Assembly: GCA_903843965.1 (NCBI GenBank)
Contig: CAIMRY010000029.1
Coordinates: forward strand, 124,001-188,000
Direction: 5' to 3'
From: an uncultured delta proteobacterium
Lineage (GTDB): Bacteria; Desulfobacterota; Desulfovibrionia; Desulfovibrionales; Desulfovibrionaceae
DNA length: 64,000 bases
Under the pieces are notes generated by a model. The model was not told the origin of the DNA and searched no databases. It saw nothing but the letters and a program-made list of their open reading frames with translations. This document shows, one piece after another, positions 47,833 to 60,448 of this stretch. Within the stretch, counting starts at the first letter, position 1, and each line of letters starts with the position of its first letter. The translations under genes and the position numbers were made by a program.

Positions 47833-48042
47833 TTTCTCATTTGCCGCAATCTCCTGTATGGTCCGCTTGCGTGTCCGCGCCAGCACGGCTGCGTGCGTGA
47901 ACATGCGCGTGCTCTTTCCCGGTCCAAAAACTGCGCCCACGCGCTCAGGACCGGCACCTGATCCTGCATGCGCAAGCCCCGGCCAGGCCAATGGTCCTGA
48001 TTCCAGAAGGCGCTTCATGGAGTTGAGGGGAGGATGCAGCAC

Positions 48043-50064
48043 ATGCTTGACGCCTACATCGGCCTCTTGATCTTCTGGCCCATGGCCGCCGGGCTGGCCT
48101 GCCTAGGCCTGCGCCGCCCGGCCGCGCGGTCCGCGCTGGTCATGGCCAGCGCCGCCATTCTGGCCGCCGCCGCCCTGGGGCTGGCCAGCCAGACCCCACT
48201 CACGGCGAACCCGGCCTTTTTGTCCTCCAGCACGGCCCTTGCCGTGGCCCAGGCCCTGGGCTTCCTTTTTCCGGCCTATTTTCTGTACACTGGCCTGAGG
48301 GAAAAACACGCGCTCGTCATCGTCTTCGCCCTGTGCCAACTCGGCCTGGCCGCCTTTGGCGCCTTCGGCCTGCCCGCACCGGCCGAGGCCAAGGCCGCCG
48401 TGGTGGTCGACGGCCTGTCTTTGGCCCTGGTCCTGGTGGTTTCCCTGATTGGCCCGCTCATCAGCATCTTCGCCCTGCCGTACATGGCGCACCATGAACA
48501 GCACCTGGGCCCGAAGATCTCGCGCCAGCCGCAGTTCTTCCTGGTCCTGCTGGCCTTCCTGGGCTTTATGAACGGTCTGGCCCTGGCGGGCGGCCTGCAC
48601 GTCTTCGCCGCCTGCTACGAGGGCACCACGCTGTGCTCCTTCCTGCTCATCGGCCACGACAAAACGCCCGAGGCCCGGCAGAGCGCCCTGCGCGCCCTGT
48701 GGCTGAACAGCCTGGGCGGCGTGTTCCTGCACACGGGCATCCTGCTCATCCAGAAGCAGTTCGCCCTGGCCGACATCCAGGCCATCGCCACCCCGGCCCT
48801 GTGGACCGGGACTTCCTCACAAGCCCTGGGCCTGCTCCCCCTGGCCCTCTTGGCCGTGGCCGCCTGCGTCAAGTCCGCACAGCTGCCCTTCCAGTCCTGG
48901 CTGCTGGGGGCCATGGTCGCGCCCACGCCGGTTTCCGCGCTGCTGCACTCCAGCACCATGGTCAACGTGGGCGTGTTTGTGTGCCTGCGCCTGGCCCCGG
49001 TGCTCGCAGGCACTTCCACAGGCCGCCTGCTGACCCTGGCCGGGGCCTTCACCTTCCTGGCCGCCTCGGCCCTGGCCCTGGGCCAAAGCAACGCCAAGAA
49101 GATCCTGGCCTACTCCACCCTGGCCAACCTGGGCCTGATCATCGCCTGCGCGGGCATCGGCACGGCTGCGGCCATCGCCGTGGGCACGGTGCTGCTGGTC
49201 GTCCACGCCGCCACCAAGGGGCTGTTGTTCCTCTGCGTGGGCGACCTTGAGCAGGCCATCGGCAGCCGCGACCTGGAGAACCTGCGCGCGGCGGTCGCCA
49301 CATCCCCGCTGACGGCCCTGGCCGCCGCCGCCGGGTCCCTGGCCATGGTCCTGCCGCCGCTGGGCATGCTGGCGGGCAAGTGGGCCGTGCTGGAGGCCGC
49401 CACAGCCAGCCACGCGAGCCCGCTCGCGGCCACCGTGGTCATGCTGGCCGTGGTCATGCTGGCCGTGGGCAGCGCGCTGGCCGTGGTCTGCTGGGTGCGC
49501 TTCACCGGCACCCTCTTGAGCGGGGTTGCCGTGGGCCAAGTCACAGCTCCGCAGACCACACCGAAACCTGGGCAGACCTCAAGCCTTGCCAGCGGTTTTA
49601 CAACCAGCCCGTCCGCCAGCCCGTCCGCCAGCCTGTCCGCCAGCCTGTCCGCCAATCTGGCCGCCAATCTGACAACCGGCCCCATCCTGACCATGCTGGC
49701 CGGGGCCGTGGGCCTGGGCCTGGCCGCACCCTGGCTCAACGCCCTGCTGCTGCCCGCCGGACAGGGCGACCCCCTGGCCGGGGGCTGGTGGCTGCTGCCT
49801 GGGCTCTTCCTCGTGGCCCTGCCGACCTGGGCCCTGGGCCTGCGCGCGCGGGCCCGCCAGAGCGCGGTCAGCCCGGCCAGCCCGTATCTCGGCGGGCTGC
49901 CGTCGGTTGCGCCCGGCAGCTTTGTCGGCGCGCTGGGGCGCAGTTGGACCCTGACCGAGGGCAACGAGTACGCCCCGGAATTCTTTGGCGAGGCGCGGCT
50001 GACCAAGCTCGCCGGAGCGCTGGCTGCCGCGCTGCTGCTGGCCCTGGCCGGAGGCGCGCTGTGA
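48043..50064 (+). CDS. echA: Ech hydrogenase subunit A (NuoL-like proton-pumping subunit)
   Basis: The 673-residue membrane protein has about 16 helices and the antiporter-like core. The proton-channel region is visible: ACYEGTTLCSFLLIGHD; CVKSAQLPFQSWLLGAMVAPTPVSALLHSSTMVN; VHAATKGLLFLCVGDLE. The ATG at 48043 is preferred because GGAGG is then 9 bases away; 48034 is an alternative. A serine/alanine-rich insert made by a 12-bp tandem repeat interrupts a loop near residues 520-545. It couples ferredoxin-linked H2 turnover to ion transport. Confidence 0.92.
   Translation: MLDAYIGLLIFWPMAAGLACLGLRRPAARSALVMASAAILAAAALGLASQTPLTANPAFLSSSTALAVAQALGFLFPAYFLYTGLREKHALVIVFALCQLGLAAFGAFGLPAPAEAKAAVVVDGLSLALVLVVSLIGPLISIFALPYMAHHEQHLGPKISRQPQFFLVLLAFLGFMNGLALAGGLHVFAACYEGTTLCSFLLIGHDKTPEARQSALRALWLNSLGGVFLHTGILLIQKQFALADIQAIATPALWTGTSSQALGLLPLALLAVAACVKSAQLPFQSWLLGAMVAPTPVSALLHSSTMVNVGVFVCLRLAPVLAGTSTGRLLTLAGAFTFLAASALALGQSNAKKILAYSTLANLGLIIACAGIGTAAAIAVGTVLLVVHAATKGLLFLCVGDLEQAIGSRDLENLRAAVATSPLTALAAAAGSLAMVLPPLGMLAGKWAVLEAATASHASPLAATVVMLAVVMLAVGSALAVVCWVRFTGTLLSGVAVGQVTAPQTTPKPGQTSSLASGFTTSPSASPSASLSASLSANLAANLTTGPILTMLAGAVGLGLAAPWLNALLLPAGQGDPLAGGWWLLPGLFLVALPTWALGLRARARQSAVSPASPYLGGLPSVAPGSFVGALGRSWTLTEGNEYAPEFFGEARLTKLAGALAAALLLALAGGAL
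49605..49672 (+). repeat. In-frame 12-bp tandem repeat in echA
   Basis: The unit GTCCGCCAGCCT repeats about five times with small changes and encodes an SASPSASLSASL-type segment in a loop between helices. Confidence 0.85.
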
Positions 50065-50915
50065 CCCTGCGCACCGTCATGCTGGCCCTGGGCGGACTGG
50101 TGCTGGTTCCGCTGGCTGGCGGCCTGCTGGCCGGGCTGGACCGGATGCTCTCCGCGCGCCTGCAATCGCGCCTGGGCCCGCCCCTCTTCCAGCCCTTCTA
50201 TGACGTGGGCAAGCTCTGGTCCAAGGTCATCGCCCCGGCCAGCCAGTGGCAGGGCCTGTTCGTGCGCTGGGCGCTCGTGGCCTCCCTGGCCTCGGCCGTG
50301 CTCCTGGCCGCCGGGGCCGACCTGCTCCTGTGCTTCTTCGTCCAGGCCGCCAGCGCCAGCTTCGTGGCGCTCGGCGCGTTCTGCGGCAACTCGCCCTACG
50401 GCAAGCTCGGCGCACAGCGCGAGCTGTTCCAGCTTTTGGCCTACGAGCCAGTGCTCCTGGTCGGCATCCTCTGCCTGGCCAAGGCCGCGGGCGGCTTCGA
50501 CGCCGCAGGCATCATGGCCGCGCACGGCCCGCTGCTGTTCCGGCTGCCGCTTGTGGCGCCGGGCCTCATCTTCGCCCTGCTGGTCAAGCTGCGCAAGTCG
50601 CCCTTTGACCTGGCGGCCAGCCACCACATGCACCAGGAGCTGGTGCGCGGCGTGTACACGGACTACGCCGGGCGCGACTTCGCTCTGCTGGAGCTGGCCC
50701 ACTGGACGGACGTAGGCGTGACCCTGTGTATCTGCTCGCTCGTGTGGGCCACCGGCCCGCTTGCGATGGTCGCCACCGGCCTGGCGTTTCTGCTGGCGGT
50801 GGTGCTCATCGACAACGTCACCGCGCGGCTCACCTGGCGCGCCATGCTGGGCCGGGCTGCGCCCCTGGCCCTGGCCCTGGCCGCGGCCAACCTTGTCTGG
50901 CTGTACCTGGAGTAG
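50061..50915 (+). CDS. echB: Ech hydrogenase subunit B (NuoH-like)
   Basis: The 284-residue membrane subunit starts with a GTG overlapping the echA stop as GTGA. It shows the NuoH/EchB pattern (RLQSRLGPPLFQPFYDVGKLWSK and LRKSPFDLAASHHMHQELV) that forms the membrane anchor for the hydrogenase core. It has eight hydrophobic segments. Confidence 0.93.
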   Translation: MTLRTVMLALGGLVLVPLAGGLLAGLDRMLSARLQSRLGPPLFQPFYDVGKLWSKVIAPASQWQGLFVRWALVASLASAVLLAAGADLLLCFFVQAASASFVALGAFCGNSPYGKLGAQRELFQLLAYEPVLLVGILCLAKAAGGFDAAGIMAAHGPLLFRLPLVAPGLIFALLVKLRKSPFDLAASHHMHQELVRGVYTDYAGRDFALLELAHWTDVGVTLCICSLVWATGPLAMVATGLAFLLAVVLIDNVTARLTWRAMLGRAAPLALALAAANLVWLYLE

Positions 50916-50919
50916 GCCC

Positions 50920-51363
50920 ATGCTCAAACGCTTCCTCAAGACCGCCCAGGTCAGGTCGCCCTGGCTGCTGCACTTCGACTGCGGCTCGTGCAACGGCTGC
51001 GACATCGAGACCCTGGCCTGCCTGACCCCGGTGTACGACGTGGAGCGCTTCGGCATCATCAACGTGGGCAACCCGCGCCACGCCGACGTGCTCGTGGTCA
51101 CCGGCACGGTGAACCCCAGAAACGCGGTGGTCCTGAAAAACCTCTACGACCAGATGCCCACGCCGAAACTGGTCATCGCCATCGGGGCCTGCGGCTGCTC
51201 CGGCGGGGTCTTCCGCGAGGCCCCGAACGTCCTGGGCGGCATCGACACAATCATCCCGGTGGACGTGTACGTGCCGGGCTGCCCGGCCAAGCCCGAGGCC
51301 ATCATGGACGCCGTGGTCACCGGCCTGGCCAAGCTCAAGGGAATTCTGGAGGCCAGCGCATGA
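50920..51363 (+). CDS. echC: Ech hydrogenase subunit C (NuoB-like small subunit)
   Basis: The 147-residue subunit carries the proximal [4Fe-4S] cluster next to the Ni-Fe site. The cysteine pattern is complete: CGSCNGCDIE near the N-terminus, IGACGCSGG in the middle and VPGCPAKPEA near the C-terminus. It overlaps echD as ATGA. Confidence 0.95.
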   Translation: MLKRFLKTAQVRSPWLLHFDCGSCNGCDIETLACLTPVYDVERFGIINVGNPRHADVLVVTGTVNPRNAVVLKNLYDQMPTPKLVIAIGACGCSGGVFREAPNVLGGIDTIIPVDVYVPGCPAKPEAIMDAVVTGLAKLKGILEASA

Positions 51364-51932
51364 GCACCACGACGACCACCGATCCGGCAAACATGAACAC
51401 GGCAACCGTGACTGCGGCAACCATCGACCCGACGACAACCAATCCGTCAACAACCAATGCGACAGGCATCAACGCGGCAGGCATCAACGCAACAGGCATC
51501 AACGCGACGACCATGGCCCCGGCAGGGCTGTTGGCCGAGGCGGCCCGGCTCAAGGCCCTGGGCAACAGGCTGGTGACCCTGACCAGCGTGGAGCTGGACG
51601 AGACGCACATGGAGGTGCTGTACCACTTCGACAAGGGCCTGGCCCTGACCACCCTGCGCGTGCCCGTGGAAAAGGGCGGGACGCTGCCGAGCATCTCCGG
51701 CCTGTTCTTTGCCTCCTTCCTGGTGGAGAACGAGATCCGCGACCAGTTCGCCCTGACCTTTGACGGGCTGGTGCTGGACTATCAGGGCAGGCTGCTGAAC
51801 GAGACCGCGCACACGACCACGAGCTCGCCCTTCTGCCGGTACCAGGTCCGGCGGGTGGACCCGGAGCCAGTGCCCGGCCCTGGACCCGGACCTGAGACTG
51901 AACCCGCCCCCGACGAAACGGAGGCCCGCTGA
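51360..51932 (+). CDS. echD: Ech hydrogenase subunit D (NuoC-like) with a repeat-rich N-terminus
   Basis: The protein has 190 residues. The EchD core is about 55-165 (LVTLTSVELDETHMEVLYHFDKG; PSISGLFFASFLVENEIRDQF). The first 50 residues are a threonine/asparagine/alanine tail with NATGINAAGINATGINA repeats. The last 25 are proline/glutamate-rich. Both tails are absent from typical EchD. The subunit stabilises the peripheral arm. Confidence 0.9.
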   Translation: MSTTTTTDPANMNTATVTAATIDPTTTNPSTTNATGINAAGINATGINATTMAPAGLLAEAARLKALGNRLVTLTSVELDETHMEVLYHFDKGLALTTLRVPVEKGGTLPSISGLFFASFLVENEIRDQFALTFDGLVLDYQGRLLNETAHTTTSSPFCRYQVRRVDPEPVPGPGPGPETEPAPDETEAR

Positions 51933-53020
51933 TGGCCCGCACCGTGATCCCCTTTGGCCCGCAGCACCCGGTGCTGCCCGAGCCCATCCACCTGTCCCTG
52001 GTGCTGGAGGACGAGCGCGTGGTGGAGGCCCTGCCCACCCTGGGCTACGTGCACCGGGGCCTGGAGCTCTTGGCCGCCAAGCGCGACTGCACCCAGATGA
52101 TCCAGATCGTGGAGCGCGTCTGCGGCATCTGCTCCATGCTCCACGCCATGTGCTACTGCCAGGGCCTGGAGCAGATGCTGGGACTGGAGGCCCCGCGCCG
52201 CGCCCGCCTGCTGCGCGTGGTCTGGAGCGAGCTGCACCGCCTGCACTCCCACCTGTTGTGGCTGGGCCTGTTTGCCGACAGCATGGGCTTCGAGGCCCTG
52301 TTCATGCAGCTGTGGAAGATCCGCGAGCGCGTCATGGACGTGAACGAGGCCACCACCGGCAACCGCGTCATCGTCTCGGTGAACGTCATCGGCGGGGTGC
52401 GCGCGGACCTGGACCAGGGCCAGATCAATTGGATCAGGGAGACCCTGGTGGATGTCGAGGCGGGCATCAAGAACCTGCAGGCAACCATCATGCACGACCC
52501 CACCGTGGGCAGGCGCACCCGGGGCATCGGCGTGCTGGGCCGGGAGGCCGCCTATGAGCTGGGCGCAGCCGGGCCCACCCTGCGCGGCAGCGGCTGGGCC
52601 CAGGACATGCGCCAGCTGAAGTACGCCGCCTTCGACGAGCTGGACTTCGAGCCCGTGGTGGAAACCGCTGGCGACTGCTGGGCGCGGGGCAGCGTGCGCT
52701 TCCGCGAGAGTTTGCAGTCCATGGACCTGGTGCGCCAGGCCCTGGGCAAACTCGAAGGGCAGGGGGTCGGCGGCGAGCTGACCGTGAAGGCCAAGGCCAA
52801 GCCCGAGGGCGAGGTCCTCACCCGGGTGGAGCAGCCCAGGGGCGAGTGCCTGTACTACCTGAAGGGCAACGGGACGCTGTTTCTGGAGCGCGTGCGCATC
52901 CGCACCCCGACCTTCGCCAACATCCCGGCCTTGACCGCCATGCTGCCGGGGCTGGACTTCGCGGACGTGCCGGTGGTGGTGCTGTCCATCGACCCCTGCA
53001 TCAGCTGCACGGAGCGCTAG
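51932..53020 (+). CDS. echE: Ech hydrogenase large subunit (NiFe active site)
   Basis: The 362-residue catalytic subunit has both NiFe-binding cysteine pairs: C64 and C67 in RVCGIC, and C356 and C359 in DPCISC near the end. This shows it is a true hydrogenase rather than a NuoD homologue. The protein ends only three residues after the last cysteine, so no C-terminal extension needs cleavage, a known feature of EchE. It overlaps echD by one base. Confidence 0.96.
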   Translation: MARTVIPFGPQHPVLPEPIHLSLVLEDERVVEALPTLGYVHRGLELLAAKRDCTQMIQIVERVCGICSMLHAMCYCQGLEQMLGLEAPRRARLLRVVWSELHRLHSHLLWLGLFADSMGFEALFMQLWKIRERVMDVNEATTGNRVIVSVNVIGGVRADLDQGQINWIRETLVDVEAGIKNLQATIMHDPTVGRRTRGIGVLGREAAYELGAAGPTLRGSGWAQDMRQLKYAAFDELDFEPVVETAGDCWARGSVRFRESLQSMDLVRQALGKLEGQGVGGELTVKAKAKPEGEVLTRVEQPRGECLYYLKGNGTLFLERVRIRTPTFANIPALTAMLPGLDFADVPVVVLSIDPCISCTER

Positions 53021-53022
53021 CC

Positions 53023-53457
53023 ATGAAGCTGCTGCCAACGGTTCTGGCCAACCTGTTCTCCCGGCCCGCCACGCGGGACTACCCGTCGTATGTGCGCGAG
53101 CCCTTTGCGCGCACGCGCGGCGAACTCGTCAACGACATCAGCCGCTGCATCTTCTGCGGCACCTGCGCGCGCAAGTGCCCGTCCCAGTGCCTGGCCGTGG
53201 TCAAGGACAGCGCCAGGGCCGAGGGTTCGTGGAGCCTGGAGTTCTTCGCCTGCGTGGGCTGCGGGGTGTGCGTGGAGGCCTGCCCGGTGCACGCCCTGTC
53301 GCAGAAGACCACGCACCGGCCCGTGGCCGTGGCGCGCGCGGTCATCACCCTGCGCGCTGCCCTGCCCGCGCGCCCGGCCAAAAAGGACAAGCCCGCCGAC
53401 AACGCCGAACCCGCCGGAAAGGACGAGCCAACCGAAAAGGACGAGCCCGCCGGATAG
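53023..53457 (+). CDS. echF: Ech hydrogenase ferredoxin-like subunit F (NuoI-like)
   Basis: The 144-residue subunit has two [4Fe-4S] motifs: CIFCGTCARKCPSQC and CVGCGVCVEACP. It carries electrons between soluble ferredoxin and EchC. The C-terminal 35 residues are lysine/aspartate/proline-rich with short repeats (KDEPTEKDEPAG), longer than in most relatives. It ends the six-gene ech operon. Confidence 0.94.
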   Translation: MKLLPTVLANLFSRPATRDYPSYVREPFARTRGELVNDISRCIFCGTCARKCPSQCLAVVKDSARAEGSWSLEFFACVGCGVCVEACPVHALSQKTTHRPVAVARAVITLRAALPARPAKKDKPADNAEPAGKDEPTEKDEPAG

Positions 53458-53736: not shown

Positions 53737-54018
53737 TTAATCGCAAGGGCCGAAGGGATCGCCGGGGCCGCAGGCATCGCAAGAATCGTCAGGTCTGAGC
53801 GCCGGTTCGCCGGGCTGCGCTTTGAGTACTCTGTCCACCACCTGGCGGACGGCAGGCAGGCATCAGCAGCCCGTGGGATTCTTGACGGCGCACTGGCTCT
53901 CGCCAGCCTTGAGCGTGGCCTTGATGCGCTCGATGAGCGTGGACCGGCCATGCGCGGCCAGATCCTGCTCGATGTCCCGGACGGTGTAGCCGAAGCAGTG
54001 GCACACAAGCTCATTCAT
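53737..54018 (-). CDS. CopZ/BFD-like [2Fe-2S] protein, predicted selenoprotein (TGA = Sec52)
   Basis: Reading from the ATG at 54018 (GAGGAG 8 bases upstream) gives a BFD-type cysteine motif VCHCFGYTVRDIE, then HGRSTLIERI and C43. At codon 52 (53865-53863) the frame meets TGA, in the sequence NPTGC-TGA-CLPAVRQVV. Relatives have NPxGxCCLG there, so TGA replaces a conserved cysteine. The frame continues 41 codons to a TAA, with family-like CLPAVRQVVDRVL and a Cys-rich tail (SCDACGPGDPFGPCD). A SECIS-like hairpin follows the TGA. If TGA is a stop, a 51-residue protein lacking the last two motif cysteines results. The family carries a [2Fe-2S] cluster and helps copper or redox handling. Confidence 0.75.
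53831..53855 (-). promoter_or_regulatory. Candidate bacterial SECIS element
   Basis: Beginning 8 bases after the in-frame TGA, the RNA can fold as CUG, a CCG bulge, a 6-bp upper stem UCCGCC/GGUGGA, an AGGU apical loop and a closing CAG. The loop guanines lie about 20 bases from the UGA, in the range known for bacterial SECIS. The fold was worked out by eye. Confidence 0.6.
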
Positions 54019-54164
54019 GCGGGTGTCTCCTCAGTTGATGCAATACCCGAGTTTGCGGCGCAGGCCAAGCCCCTGCGGGCAGGCACTCCCGCCTTGACGC
54101 CGGAGTGCGGGCTCCCTACAAGAGCCATGCGTCCGCATCACCACCGCCAACCAAGTGAGGCCCC

Positions 54165-54461: not shown

Positions 54462-54992
54462 ATGATCCTCGACGCCCTGGCCAACTGGCGGCTCTACTCT
54501 GACCGGCCAGCCTGGAAACAGGCCTTTGCCTGGCTGCAAACCATCACGCCGGACACGGCCCCGGGCGAGCACGCCATTGCCGGAGACGGCTCGGCTGGCG
54601 GCTCGGCTGCCGGTTCGGCTGGCGGTTCGGCTGGCGGCGCTGGCCGCGACCTCTACGCCATCGTCTTCGACTTTCAGACCAAGAACCTGCTCGACACCAC
54701 CCTGGAGGCCCACCGCGTCTATGCGGACCTCCACATTCCCCTCACCGGCCCGGAGGTCCAGGCCCGCTTCGCCCTGGAGGAGCTGGAGGAGAAGACCGCC
54801 TACGACGCGGCCACGGACGCGGCGCACTTCCACCACCCGGAGCGCTTCAACGCGCTGTTCACGCTGCACCCCGGCCAGTTTGCGCTGTACCTGCCGGGCG
54901 ACGCGCACTTAAGCCAGTGCAAGACCACCCCGGCCCCGGCATCCCTGCGCAAGGTGGTGGTCAAGATCCGCGCGGAGCTGCTGCTCCCGTGA
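54462..54992 (+). CDS. YhcH/YjgK/YiaL family protein
   Basis: This 176-residue protein has the cupin-like fold with TLEAHRVYADLHIPLTGPE, HFHHPERFNALF and HPGQFALYLPGDAHLSQC, whose histidines and glutamate form the metal site. Family members act on sugar acids, for example as sialic-acid anomerases. An inserted GSAGGSAAGSAGGSAGG segment (about 43-60) comes from a 15-bp type tandem repeat (54590-54645) between the first helix and the first strand. It overlaps the chrA start as GTGA. Confidence 0.87.
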   Translation: MILDALANWRLYSDRPAWKQAFAWLQTITPDTAPGEHAIAGDGSAGGSAAGSAGGSAGGAGRDLYAIVFDFQTKNLLDTTLEAHRVYADLHIPLTGPEVQARFALEELEEKTAYDAATDAAHFHHPERFNALFTLHPGQFALYLPGDAHLSQCKTTPAPASLRKVVVKIRAELLLP

Positions 54993-56266
54993 ACCAGCCC
55001 CCAGACGCTGACTCGCACGGCTCGCACGGCCCCGGCTCGCACGACCCAGGCCAGCACCACCCCGGCTCGCACGACCACGGCCAGCCCGGCCCGGCCCAGG
55101 CCAGCGCGCCCGTCAGCGCCTTCGTCAGTCCACGGCCAAGCCTGCTGGACATCTTCCGCTGCTTTCTGCGCGTGGGGGCCACGGCCTACGGCGGCCCGGC
55201 CATGATGCCGCTGATGCGCGAGCATATTCTCAAGCGCGGCTGGCTCACGGACGAGGGGTTCAAGGTCGGCCTTTCGGTGTGCCAGGCCGTGCCCGGCGGC
55301 ACGCTGATGCAGATGGCCGCCTACACCGGCCTGGTGCAACGCGGCCTGCCCGGCGCGCTGGCGGGGTTCCTGGGCTTCGCCGTGCCCGCCTGCCTGCTCA
55401 TCACCGCGCTCTCGGCCCTGTACCACGCCATGCAGGGCGTGGCCTTGACCACCTCGGCCATGGCCGGCCTGTCCAGCGTGGTGCTGGGCATCATCGCCCT
55501 GGCGGTGTACGACTTCTGGCAGAAGTATGCCCACGGCCCGCGCCGCGTGGTGGTGACCATGCTGGCCTGCGTGCTGTTTTTGTCCGGCGTCAGCCCGGCC
55601 TGGATCATCCTGGGCGCGGCCTGCCTGGGCCCGCTGGTCTTTTACGACGAGACCGCCCCGCCCGTGAGCCTGCCCACGGCCCCGGTGCCCCTGCGCGGGG
55701 TGCTGCTGCTGGCGGGCGTCGCCCTGGCCTGGCTCGGCCTGACCTTTTTCACGCGGCCCCTGCTCTTCAACCTGTCGCTGTCCATGGCCAAGGCCGACCT
55801 CATGGCCTTTGGCGGGTACGGCGTGTTCCCGGCCCTGTACCACGAGGCCGTGGACCTGCACGGCTGGATGAGCGCGGCCACGTTCATGGACGGCATGGCG
55901 CTGGCCCAGGTCACGCCCGGCCCGTTCATGCTCGGGGCCTGCTTCGTGGGCTACCACATCGCCGGGCTCATCGGCGCGCTCACCGCCGGGGTGTGGATCT
56001 TCACGCCGTCGTTCTTCATCCTCATGCTCACCGTGCCCAGCGCGGGCAGGCTGCTGGGCTGGCAGCCCTTCCGCCGGGCGCTCTCGGGCGTGCTCTCAAC
56101 CCTCGGCGGGCTGATCCTGGCCGTGGGCATCCAGCTGGGCCGCAGCATGGACTGGTCGTGGCTCAAGGCGGCCTTCTGCGTGGCGGCGACCATTGCCCTG
56201 TACAAGCGGGTGGACCCCATCTGGGTGGTGCTGTGCGGGGTGGCGCTGGGGTTGTGGCTGCTGTGA
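54989..56266 (+). CDS. chrA: Chromate transporter (two-domain CHR family)
   Basis: The protein has 425 residues. A GTG start at 54989 overlaps the previous stop. It has two CHR domains (about 50-215 and 240-420) with GATAYGGPAMMPLMREHIL and FGGYGVFPALYHEAV, each followed by an AVPGGT or QVTPGPF motif. It exports chromate or transports sulfate-like oxyanions. The first 45 residues are a histidine/glycine/aspartate-rich tail with SHDPGQHHPGSHDHG repeats, not seen in typical ChrA, which could bind metal. Confidence 0.92.
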   Translation: MNQPPDADSHGSHGPGSHDPGQHHPGSHDHGQPGPAQASAPVSAFVSPRPSLLDIFRCFLRVGATAYGGPAMMPLMREHILKRGWLTDEGFKVGLSVCQAVPGGTLMQMAAYTGLVQRGLPGALAGFLGFAVPACLLITALSALYHAMQGVALTTSAMAGLSSVVLGIIALAVYDFWQKYAHGPRRVVVTMLACVLFLSGVSPAWIILGAACLGPLVFYDETAPPVSLPTAPVPLRGVLLLAGVALAWLGLTFFTRPLLFNLSLSMAKADLMAFGGYGVFPALYHEAVDLHGWMSAATFMDGMALAQVTPGPFMLGACFVGYHIAGLIGALTAGVWIFTPSFFILMLTVPSAGRLLGWQPFRRALSGVLSTLGGLILAVGIQLGRSMDWSWLKAAFCVAATIALYKRVDPIWVVLCGVALGLWLL

Positions 56267-58695: not shown

Positions 58696-59538
58696 CTATT
58701 TGGCGGCGTTGGGGAAGAACAGCTGCTTGCCCTCAAGCTTGAAGCCCGCGATTTCCTTCTGCCCCACGGCGGAGAGGAACCAGGCCTCCAGCTTCTTGGC
58801 CGCCGCGTGCTTGATATTGCTGCACTTGGGCGCCAGCTGGATGATGCTGTACTGGTTGAGCAGGACCTTGTCACCCTCGGACAGGATCACCAGGCCGGAC
58901 TTGCCCTGGTCCTTGGCCTCGTACTTGATCCAGGTGCCGCGGTCGGTCAGGGTGTAGGCCCCGCGCTCGGCGGCGATGCGCAGGGTGGCCAGCATGCCCT
59001 GGCCCACTCCGATGTACCAGGACTCCTTGTCCGGCAGGGGCATGGCGGCAACCTTCCAGAGGCCCTGCTCCATCTTGTGCGTGCCGGAGTCGTCGCCACG
59101 GCTGGCAAAGGGGGCCTTGGTCACGGCGATGGCCTTGAGCGAGTCGGCCACGCCCTTGCCCTTGATCCTGGCCGGGTCCTTGGCCGGTCCCACCAGCACG
59201 AAGTCGTTGTACATGAACTCCGCGCGGCTCACGCCGTTGCCTTCCTCGATGAATTTCTTCTCCGCGCCGGGCGCGTGGACCATGAGGATGTCCACGTCGC
59301 AGTTCTTGCCGTGCTCCAGGGCCTTGCCCGTGCCCACGGCGATCCAGCGCATCTCAAGGCCGGTATCCTTCAGAATTTTCGGAACCAGATAGTCCAGCAG
59401 ACCGGTGTCTGCGGTGCTGGTGGTGGTGCCCACCAGGATGGGCTCTGCGGCCAGGGCTGCGCCGGCAAAGGCCAGGGTCAACGCCATGGTCAACGACAGG
59501 GCCAGGGTCAGGGTCAGGATGACGGAAAGCTTGCGCAT
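58696..59538 (-). CDS. tupA: Tungstate-binding protein
   Basis: The 280-residue periplasmic protein has a signal peptide of repeated LTLALSLTMALTL units. The oxyanion-binding loop TTTSTADTGLLDYL (TTTS at 38-41) and SRGDDSGTHKME are the family hallmarks for tungstate. The ATG at 59538 follows GAGAGGAGAAG. Tungstate is needed for formate dehydrogenases and aldehyde oxidoreductases in these bacteria. Confidence 0.93.
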   Translation of the reverse strand: MRKLSVILTLTLALSLTMALTLAFAGAALAAEPILVGTTTSTADTGLLDYLVPKILKDTGLEMRWIAVGTGKALEHGKNCDVDILMVHAPGAEKKFIEEGNGVSRAEFMYNDFVLVGPAKDPARIKGKGVADSLKAIAVTKAPFASRGDDSGTHKMEQGLWKVAAMPLPDKESWYIGVGQGMLATLRIAAERGAYTLTDRGTWIKYEAKDQGKSGLVILSEGDKVLLNQYSIIQLAPKCSNIKHAAAKKLEAWFLSAVGQKEIAGFKLEGKQLFFPNAAK

Positions 59539-59584
59539 GGTCTTCTCCTCTCGCTTGATGTGTCGGGAACGGATTCGTGCGTGT

Positions 59585-60448
59585 CTACTCGTACTGCCTG
59601 GCGTAGGCCGCGTCATTGTAAAGCGGCGCGCCGTGCTCCGCCTTGCCGAAGCTGCGGATGAGCTTCTGGCCTGCGGGCGAGCCCACGAAGGCGATGAACT
59701 TGGCGGCCATGGCCGCACCCGGAGTCACGCCCTCGGGCTGGCACAGGGTGTGGTAGGTGTTGATCAGAAACTTGTCGCCGCGAAACAAAATCTTCAGGCC
59801 CTTGACGTCCTTCTTCACTGCGGCCCAGGTGCTGCTGTCGGTCATGAAGTAGCCCTTCTCGGCGTCGGCGCGCAGCAGGGTGTCCTTCATGAAGCCCTTG
59901 GAGATGATGTACCAGTCGCCCGCCGGGGTGATTTCCGCATTTCTCCAGATGGCCAGCTCCTTCTTGTTGGTGCCGGAGTTGTCGCCGCGGGAGAAGAACC
60001 TGGCCTGGGCCGTGGCGATCATGGCGTAGGCCTCGGCGGCGGTCTTGGCCTTGGCGATCTTGGCGGGGTCCTTCCTCGGGCCCACGATGTAGAACTCGTT
60101 GGAGCCGATGAGCGAGTGGTTCACGGCCCAGCCCTCGTCAAGCGCGGCCTTTTCGGCCTTGGGCGCGTGGACCATGATCATGTCCACGGACTTCTCCTTG
60201 AGCAGATCCAGCGACTCGCCCGAACCGGCTTTGACCCAGTTGAGTTTGGCCTTCTCCTTTTTGCCGAAGGCCTCGCCCAGGACCTTGAGCAGGCCCAGCT
60301 CGCCGGGGCTGCCCGTAGCCAGGGAGAACTCACTGGGGCCGGGGCCGTATGATTCGCTGATTTTCTGGGCGGCCAGCGCGCCCGCAGGGAAGACGGCGGC
60401 GCAGGCGATCACGGCCAGCAGGACAGTCAGGGAGATGAATTTAGGCAT
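59585..60448 (-). CDS. Second TupA-like substrate-binding protein
   Basis: The 287-residue secreted protein is a paralogue of TupA: SRGDNSGTNKKELAIWRN aligns with the ligand loop of tupA, and MIMVHAPKAEKAAL with its DILMVHAPGAEKKF. The N-terminal binding loop reads SLATGSPGELGLLK instead of TTTSTADTGLL, so its specificity may differ (molybdate, or a higher-affinity role). It is the first gene of the operon, preceded by a GGAGGAG site and a 26-base palindrome. Confidence 0.88.
   Translation of the reverse strand: MPKFISLTVLLAVIACAAVFPAGALAAQKISESYGPGPSEFSLATGSPGELGLLKVLGEAFGKKEKAKLNWVKAGSGESLDLLKEKSVDMIMVHAPKAEKAALDEGWAVNHSLIGSNEFYIVGPRKDPAKIAKAKTAAEAYAMIATAQARFFSRGDNSGTNKKELAIWRNAEITPAGDWYIISKGFMKDTLLRADAEKGYFMTDSSTWAAVKKDVKGLKILFRGDKFLINTYHTLCQPEGVTPGAAMAAKFIAFVGSPAGQKLIRSFGKAEHGAPLYNDAAYARQYE

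Follow-up and report, generated by a model that had tools for sequence, protein, structure and literature searches.

A short reading frame in a Humidesulfovibrio-like sulfate reducer contains an in-frame TGA, which raises the question of whether this codon ends translation or encodes selenocysteine (Sec), and of what a protein made by reading through it would do. The frame lies in the window, by which we mean the whole 64,000-nucleotide stretch of DNA analysed. The preliminary description had given the extent of the gene as we find it (Table 1) but had left out the strand: the gene is on the minus strand, and the plus-strand translation of 53737-54018 is unrelated to a BFD-like protein. It had also placed the TGA at the first Cys of an NPxGxCC motif, and a Sec residue at this place is strongly backed by conservation, by a SECIS hairpin and by the sel genes of the genome. 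With the TGA read as Sec, the Cys/Sec layout of the window protein is C6-x-C8 ... C43-AVKNPTGC-U52-C53, followed by a tail with three Cys.

Table 1. Positions of the selenoprotein gene, its signals and its neighbours in the window
Feature	Positions	Strand	Remarks
BFD-like selenoprotein CDS, 93 aa	53737..54018	minus	ATG at 54018, TAA at 53739-53737; TGA codon 52 read as Sec
UGA codon (Sec52)	53863..53865	minus	in frame, codon 52
SECIS hairpin GUCCGCC-AGGU-GGUGGAC, 7 bp, 4-nt loop	53833..53850	minus	from fold and comparison
Shine-Dalgarno-like GAGGAG, 8 nt before ATG	54027..54032	minus	read from sequence
YhcH/YjgK/YiaL (DUF386) gene	54462..54992	plus	genus-conserved neighbour on the opposite strand, 6 loci; context only
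Chromate efflux transporter	54917..56266	plus	TIGR00937, 219.8 bits, cut-off 171.7; positions are those of the ORF as listed, the true start probably lying inside; context only

One or several Cys occur in the tail (window 53740-53784, minus strand; also L026-L030) of the Humidesulfovibrio-like group; judged by eye, this Cys tail is absent from most members outside that group. Humidesulfovibrio-like members with the Cys tail also lack the Cys two residues before C43. Convergent with the selenoprotein gene is an apparent energy-converting hydrogenase-like cluster (48034-53457, plus strand; named from sequence), whose last subunit is ferredoxin-like. Two ORFs at 58696-60448 (minus strand) resemble, by eye, periplasmic substrate-binding proteins of a tungstate- or molybdate-type ABC transporter.

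The UGA codon, the Sec machinery and the downstream hairpin

We searched 59 genomes, the window's own and 58 relatives, and obtained 20 matches at E 0.001. The TGA stood at the Sec position in the window's own genome and in 18 of the 58 relatives; the 20th match (L044) was NifU-like by sequence, had no TGA and was left out of the counts. When a profile of these 19 TGA-bearing sequences was run against 395 phylum genomes, 59 matches were strong (E ≤ 2.7e-17); 57 of these had the TGA, which directly precedes the last Cys in all 57 genes. The two strong matches without a TGA were in G147 and G113, and most of the weaker matches listed (E above 2.7e-17) had no internal stop. Among the 57, one gene (G413) has a TAA shortly past the domain, and another (L224, in G390), possibly a decayed copy, no longer has the second Cys of CxC.

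A scan of GTDB species genomes extended the distribution of the codon. Of 80 named loci, 79 carried the TGA, and past it their frames remain family-like, as had been said of the window frame; these 80 are the best of 119 relatives, several are the same records as in the 59- and 395-genome sets, and the counts are not independent, because the loci are related and the most similar of the 119, and some come from one genome. The residue after the UGA was Cys in all 79. Hosts include Desulfovibrio, Desulfosarcina widdelii (L136), Nitratidesulfovibrio, Olavius symbionts and Nitrospirae, together with a Synergistaceae MAG and the gammaproteobacterium Ectothiorhodospira shaposhnikovii. The sole Cys form among the best 80 of 119 was that of an Armatimonadetes MAG (L103), with NPKGICC. 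When homologues were aligned with the TGA translated as U, U52 faced Cys in this short form and in four long forms (L181, L182, L196 and L197). In a set of 65 sequences, made up of that of the window and those of 64 named loci among the 80, the only invariant Cys/Sec residues were C6, C8, C43, U52 and C53. Past the UGA, as before it, substitutions were commoner at third codon positions than at the other two (0.354 vs 0.192 and 0.196; six sequences). Two matches were left out of the counts, one with two TGAs that looks decayed or frameshifted (L193) and one that matches the main family partially (L192).

The window's own genome carries tRNA-Sec with anticodon UCA, selA (567.9 bits, cut-off 267.9), selB (388.8 bits, cut-off 242) and selD, which itself has one TGA in the gene. 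It also has three formate dehydrogenase alpha genes over cut-off, two of them with one TGA each. All 57 TGA-bearing genomes of the phylum have selB at E below 1e-100, against a background of 353 of 395 genomes over cut-off (Fisher p 0.001); because so many genomes carry it, selB is a weak discriminating marker within the phylum. Among the genomes behind chosen named loci, selB was over cut-off in 12 of 13, and the Myxococcales MAG of L100 had no selB over cut-off (best 164 bits). In a Desulfonauticus-like genome (L036 and L056), a protein that is SelB-like by its first residues is encoded three genes downstream, about 2.5 kb away.

The hairpin with an AGGU loop that had been placed about 20 bases past the TGA is present, with a loop that starts 19 nt after the UGA. 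A single fold of 56 nt was unremarkable (z -1.27, 20 of 200 shuffles equally good), so that the case for the hairpin rests on comparison. The 79 named Sec genes form on average 6.48 of the 7 stem pairs, compared to 4.54 (sd 0.11, maximum 4.85, 1000 trials) when the peptide was kept and synonymous codons were drawn randomly in the six stem codons; these trials understate the true spread, since the 79 genes are related. At least six of seven pairs form in 74 of the 79 genes, where 13.6 were expected and the shuffles reached at most 26, and the other five genes form five pairs. Bacterial SECIS elements have a G in the apical loop, and a G stands at loop position 1 or 2 in all 79 loops.

The stem was also compared in an alignment of 47 sequences. 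Stem cells were paired in 92.4% of cases; the share was 90.1% for shuffles and between 30 and 64% with the partner slid. Changes on both sides, from CG to UA, were seen in seven cells at two stem pairs; shuffles gave seven doubly changed cells in 0 of 500 trials and two doubly changed pairs in 26 of 500. The covariation score of the stem exceeded that of every shuffle, and further pair types in the stem showed no excess over shuffles in these 47 sequences (379 of 500). The loop-closing pair was missing in 15 sequences and the outermost pair in 9. An Rfam scan returned no SECIS match, and its only hit was a chance match elsewhere. The comparison with synonymous shuffles indicates that the hairpin is under selection at the RNA level. 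The Cys form L103 retains five of the seven pairs, which places it at the bottom of the range of the Sec genes; its stem is not clearly apart from theirs, because 5 of the 79 likewise form five. Its genome carries selB, and its Cys may be a recent change from Sec.

Two readings of the codon compete with Sec. If the UGA were an ordinary stop, the product would be a truncated or decayed protein of 51 aa; this agrees with translation table 11, which reads TGA as stop, and with the unexceptional lone fold of the region. It is at odds with a frame that stays family-like past the UGA and continues with Cys in those 79 of the 80 named loci, with the excess of third-position substitutions past the codon and with the selection on the hairpin at the synonymous level. 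Conservation of the UGA in the named loci and the synonymous-shuffle test thus led us to rule out a plain stop or a pseudogene, which we regard as highly improbable. The stem codons encode conserved residues, and the five pairs kept by L103 and by five Sec genes would also be expected if the hairpin merely reflected the conserved peptide V-R-Q-V-V-D and the UGA were read through with another amino acid. When synonymous codons are shuffled with this peptide kept, however, about two of the seven pairs disappear on average, and the presence of selB in every TGA-bearing genome of the phylum search argues against insertion of another amino acid, so that we give this reading hardly any weight. We conclude from the sequence comparisons that UGA 52 almost certainly encodes Sec.

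Family assignment and relation to predicted CopZ-family selenoproteins

The CopZ/BFD-like assignment made in the preliminary description holds in both sequence comparisons that bear on it. The window protein narrowly passes the gathering score of Pfam PF04324 (Fer2_BFD; 26.8 bits, cut-off 26), and in a profile search of the PDB the only credible match was 2hu9, the N-terminal domain of A. fulgidus CopZ (CopZ-NT; E 7e-4). A phmmer search of the PDB with the single protein gave only chance matches to RNF25. In the profile alignment, C75, C77, C109, C118 and C119 of CopZ-NT face C6, C8, C43, U52 and C53 of the window protein; Sec thus replaces Cys118, and the zinc-binding N-terminal half of CopZ-NT is absent. 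The ligands of the CopZ-NT cluster, reportedly described by Sazinsky in 2007, are taken here to be Cys75, Cys77, Cys109 and Cys119, and on that assignment Sec52 would not be a ligand itself but would adjoin one.

The AlphaFold model of the window protein is of middling quality (pLDDT 74, pTM 0.54). A Foldseek search with this model found no match at E 0.001, the best being Bfd at E 2.1. On realignment, the closest structures were Bfd (4e6k, Z 5.8) and then 2hu9 (Z 3.3), where Z under 8 counts as weak; as far as a model of this kind can tell, these weak values agree with the family assignment from sequence. The likeness to Bfd (4e6k, 6e6r) is this match of the modelled fold. Bfd holds its ligands in a CxC plus CxxC spacing; the second pair of the window protein is 10 residues apart instead of forming CxxC, so this spacing is not found in it. 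A BFD-like cluster domain is very probable, and we infer from its sequence that the window protein is a [2Fe-2S] cluster protein.

Three NCBIfam models describe relatives. The window protein resembles CopZ_Nterm_CC (NF047645) over profile positions 85-137, including the NPxGxCC motif, but scores 41.6 bits against a cut-off of 100, has nothing for the first 84 positions and carries Sec for the first Cys of CC. Likewise, it shares a related C-terminal [2Fe-2S] stretch with CopZ_Nterm_CU (NF045877, the Csac_0668 family, form 2; profile 99-161, 29.9 bits), but falls far under the cut-off of 190 and lacks the first 98 positions, and its order is U-C where the form 2 motif is CU. The window gene fails both CopZ_Nterm models because it lacks their N-terminal half; the long Cys form L181 passes CopZ_Nterm_CC (134.8 vs 100). 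The third model, MerT_CopZ_Se (NF045683), is named as a MerT/CopZ fusion-like heavy metal transport selenoprotein, a name that couples a CopZ-like part with mercury transport. This model is not matched by the window protein and is matched weakly by the plasmid protein L196, through the MerT part. NF045683 is already part of NCBIfam, so the connection of CopZ-like selenoproteins with mercury transport is in itself not novel.

The suggestion in the preliminary description that the protein may be a new selenoprotein does not stand. In the text available to us, Table 1 of PMC13188914 lists a predicted selenoprotein called '(2Fe-2S)-binding protein (copper chaperone CopZ family) form 1', with motif GxUC and representative WP_245779778.1, and a predicted form 2 with motif CU, represented by Csac_0668; both forms also appear, without a motif, in the available part of PMC9312934. 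Section 7 of PMC13188914, in that text, is silent on the function of both forms, and several other predicted selenoproteins are implicated there in mercury or arsenic resistance. The main text of PMC2398784, the source of the 2026 review for both forms, does not mention CopZ, copper chaperone, 2Fe-2S or BFD in the portion available, and the accessible portions of PMC5029168, PMC5322559, PMC12013277 and PMC4510573 add nothing further on form 1. The window protein shares with form 1, as described in the accessible text of PMC13188914, the CopZ-like BFD domain and Sec in G-x-U-C, which reads G50-C51-U52-C53 within its Fer2_BFD domain. This likeness is one of motif and domain, WP_245779778.1 having been compared by description only. 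The window gene thus probably belongs to an already predicted family of CopZ-like selenoproteins, set beside form 1 by description, and is not of a new kind.

A second set of sequences could also bear the name. Seven weaker matches (L185-L191, from G259, G160, G332, G339, G146, G353 and G445) are short and BFD-like and have a TGA at the same place, in a motif ...P-R-(G/R)-R-U-C that contains GxUC in five of the seven. Hairpins can be folded after their UGAs, a fold made without a control. Sec in this lineage was either gained separately or inherited, and form 1 of the reviews may be either the short family of the window gene or this lineage.

Gene neighbourhoods, fusions and possible role

We examined the surroundings of 94 loci, of which 92 are distinct (L054/L167 and L056/L156 are duplicates, none of the four with a counted neighbour); neighbours were called by conservation-weighted ORFs and tblastn to scanned representatives. 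ArsC and ArsM-like are names given in this analysis, the first to an LMWPc-family protein and the second to a methyltransferase. At least one Mer, Ars, TauE, thioredoxin, methyltransferase or FmdE gene was found within about 2.5 kb in 30 of the 92 loci, compared to 3 for the same set in flanks 5 to 7.5 kb away (295 kb of far flanks vs 452 kb of near flanks); this count is a description and not a test, because the set was picked post hoc from the near neighbours. The other 62 loci, including the window, show none of these metal or thiol neighbours, though some of them have truncated flanks; both near flanks are whole in 52 of the 80 named loci.

Several arrangements recur. MerR-MerT-MerA is found in L063 and L097, MerT-MerA in L169, MerR-MerA in L100 and MerR-thioredoxin-MerT in L110 and L136. 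An ArsR-ArsC-ArsP-TauE-thioredoxin arrangement, whole or in part, occurs in L119, L131-L133, L140, L146 and L157, several of which are close relatives. A chromate transporter gene lies directly upstream in L117, L123, L147, L151, L155 and L170; six Humidesulfovibrio-like loci, one of them that of the window, have it on the opposite strand. Within 2.5 kb of the window gene there is no Mer or Ars gene; the genes next to it are those for YhcH and the chromate transporter, and no match in the window's own genome is over the MerA cut-off (best 343 vs 454 bits).

Related domains are also joined to Mer proteins. In L100 (1806-3473, plus strand), the Sec domain reads without a stop into MerA (TIGR02053, 568 bits, cut-off 454, residues 95-555) with the end SCCAA; MerA could start internally, so that the frame may represent either one fused gene or two separate ones. 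In L182 (1333-3459, minus strand), a Cys long form of CopZ_Nterm_CC (105.7 bits, cut-off 100) precedes MerA (568 bits) in a single fused protein. Sixteen plasmid records contain relatives, two of which were inspected. One (L196, 3689-4921, plus strand) encodes a CopZ_Nterm_CC-MerT-HMA fusion with a Cys pair; its merA annotation as a mercuric reductase does not fit these domains, and the public name looks wrong. The other (L197), also with a Cys pair, adjoins merF and a metal-responsive regulator.

We favour, with a probability of roughly 0.8 for the explanation as a whole, a small BFD-like [2Fe-2S] selenoprotein with a role in handling soft metal(loid)s; judged from sequence and gene context, this is the likeliest role, at about even odds. 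The cluster would be held by C6, C8, C43 and C53, and Sec52, beside the last ligand, would be a free selenolate at the cluster edge. Less certainly, soft metal(loid) ions (Hg, As and possibly others) might be bound through Sec52 and neighbouring Cys, the cluster might act as an electron relay, and the ion might be passed to a MerA-like reductase or to an exporter such as ArsP or a TauE-like protein. The protein could instead have a general redox or electron transfer role, as a Bfd-like ferredoxin or in iron or copper handling, with Mer and Ars neighbourhoods that are incidental. The nearest solved folds, Bfd and CopZ-NT, fit such a role, CopZ-NT presumably binding and possibly reducing copper, as does the large share of loci, the window included, without metal or thiol neighbours. 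By contrast, Mer and Ars genes recur as neighbours in separate lineages, and this, together with the in-frame MerA of L100, the MerA fusion of L182 and the MerT-HMA fusion of L196, speaks against it; we regard a general redox role as a serious but lesser prospect.

Extended to the family, a soft metal(loid) role suggests, tentatively, a widespread set of selenium-dependent [2Fe-2S] modules for handling toxic metal(loid)s, in which the selenolate beside the cluster would capture Hg(II) or As(III) and the module would hand the ion to a mercuric reductase or be fused in front of it. MerA often has an N-terminal metal-binding domain, whose place the Sec module would then take. A link of selenium to Hg and As is made less novel by the existing NF045683 and by the ties of other selenoproteins to mercury and arsenic resistance in the available text of PMC13188914.

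For the organism, a Humidesulfovibrio-like sulfate reducer, these results mean that a small gene with an internal stop codon very likely encodes a selenoprotein, and that this gene falls far under the cut-offs of both NCBIfam CopZ_Nterm models. For the family, an entry in the tables of reviews gains a testable function: the Mer and Ars neighbours and the Mer fusions suggest that selenium takes part in metal detoxification by anaerobes.
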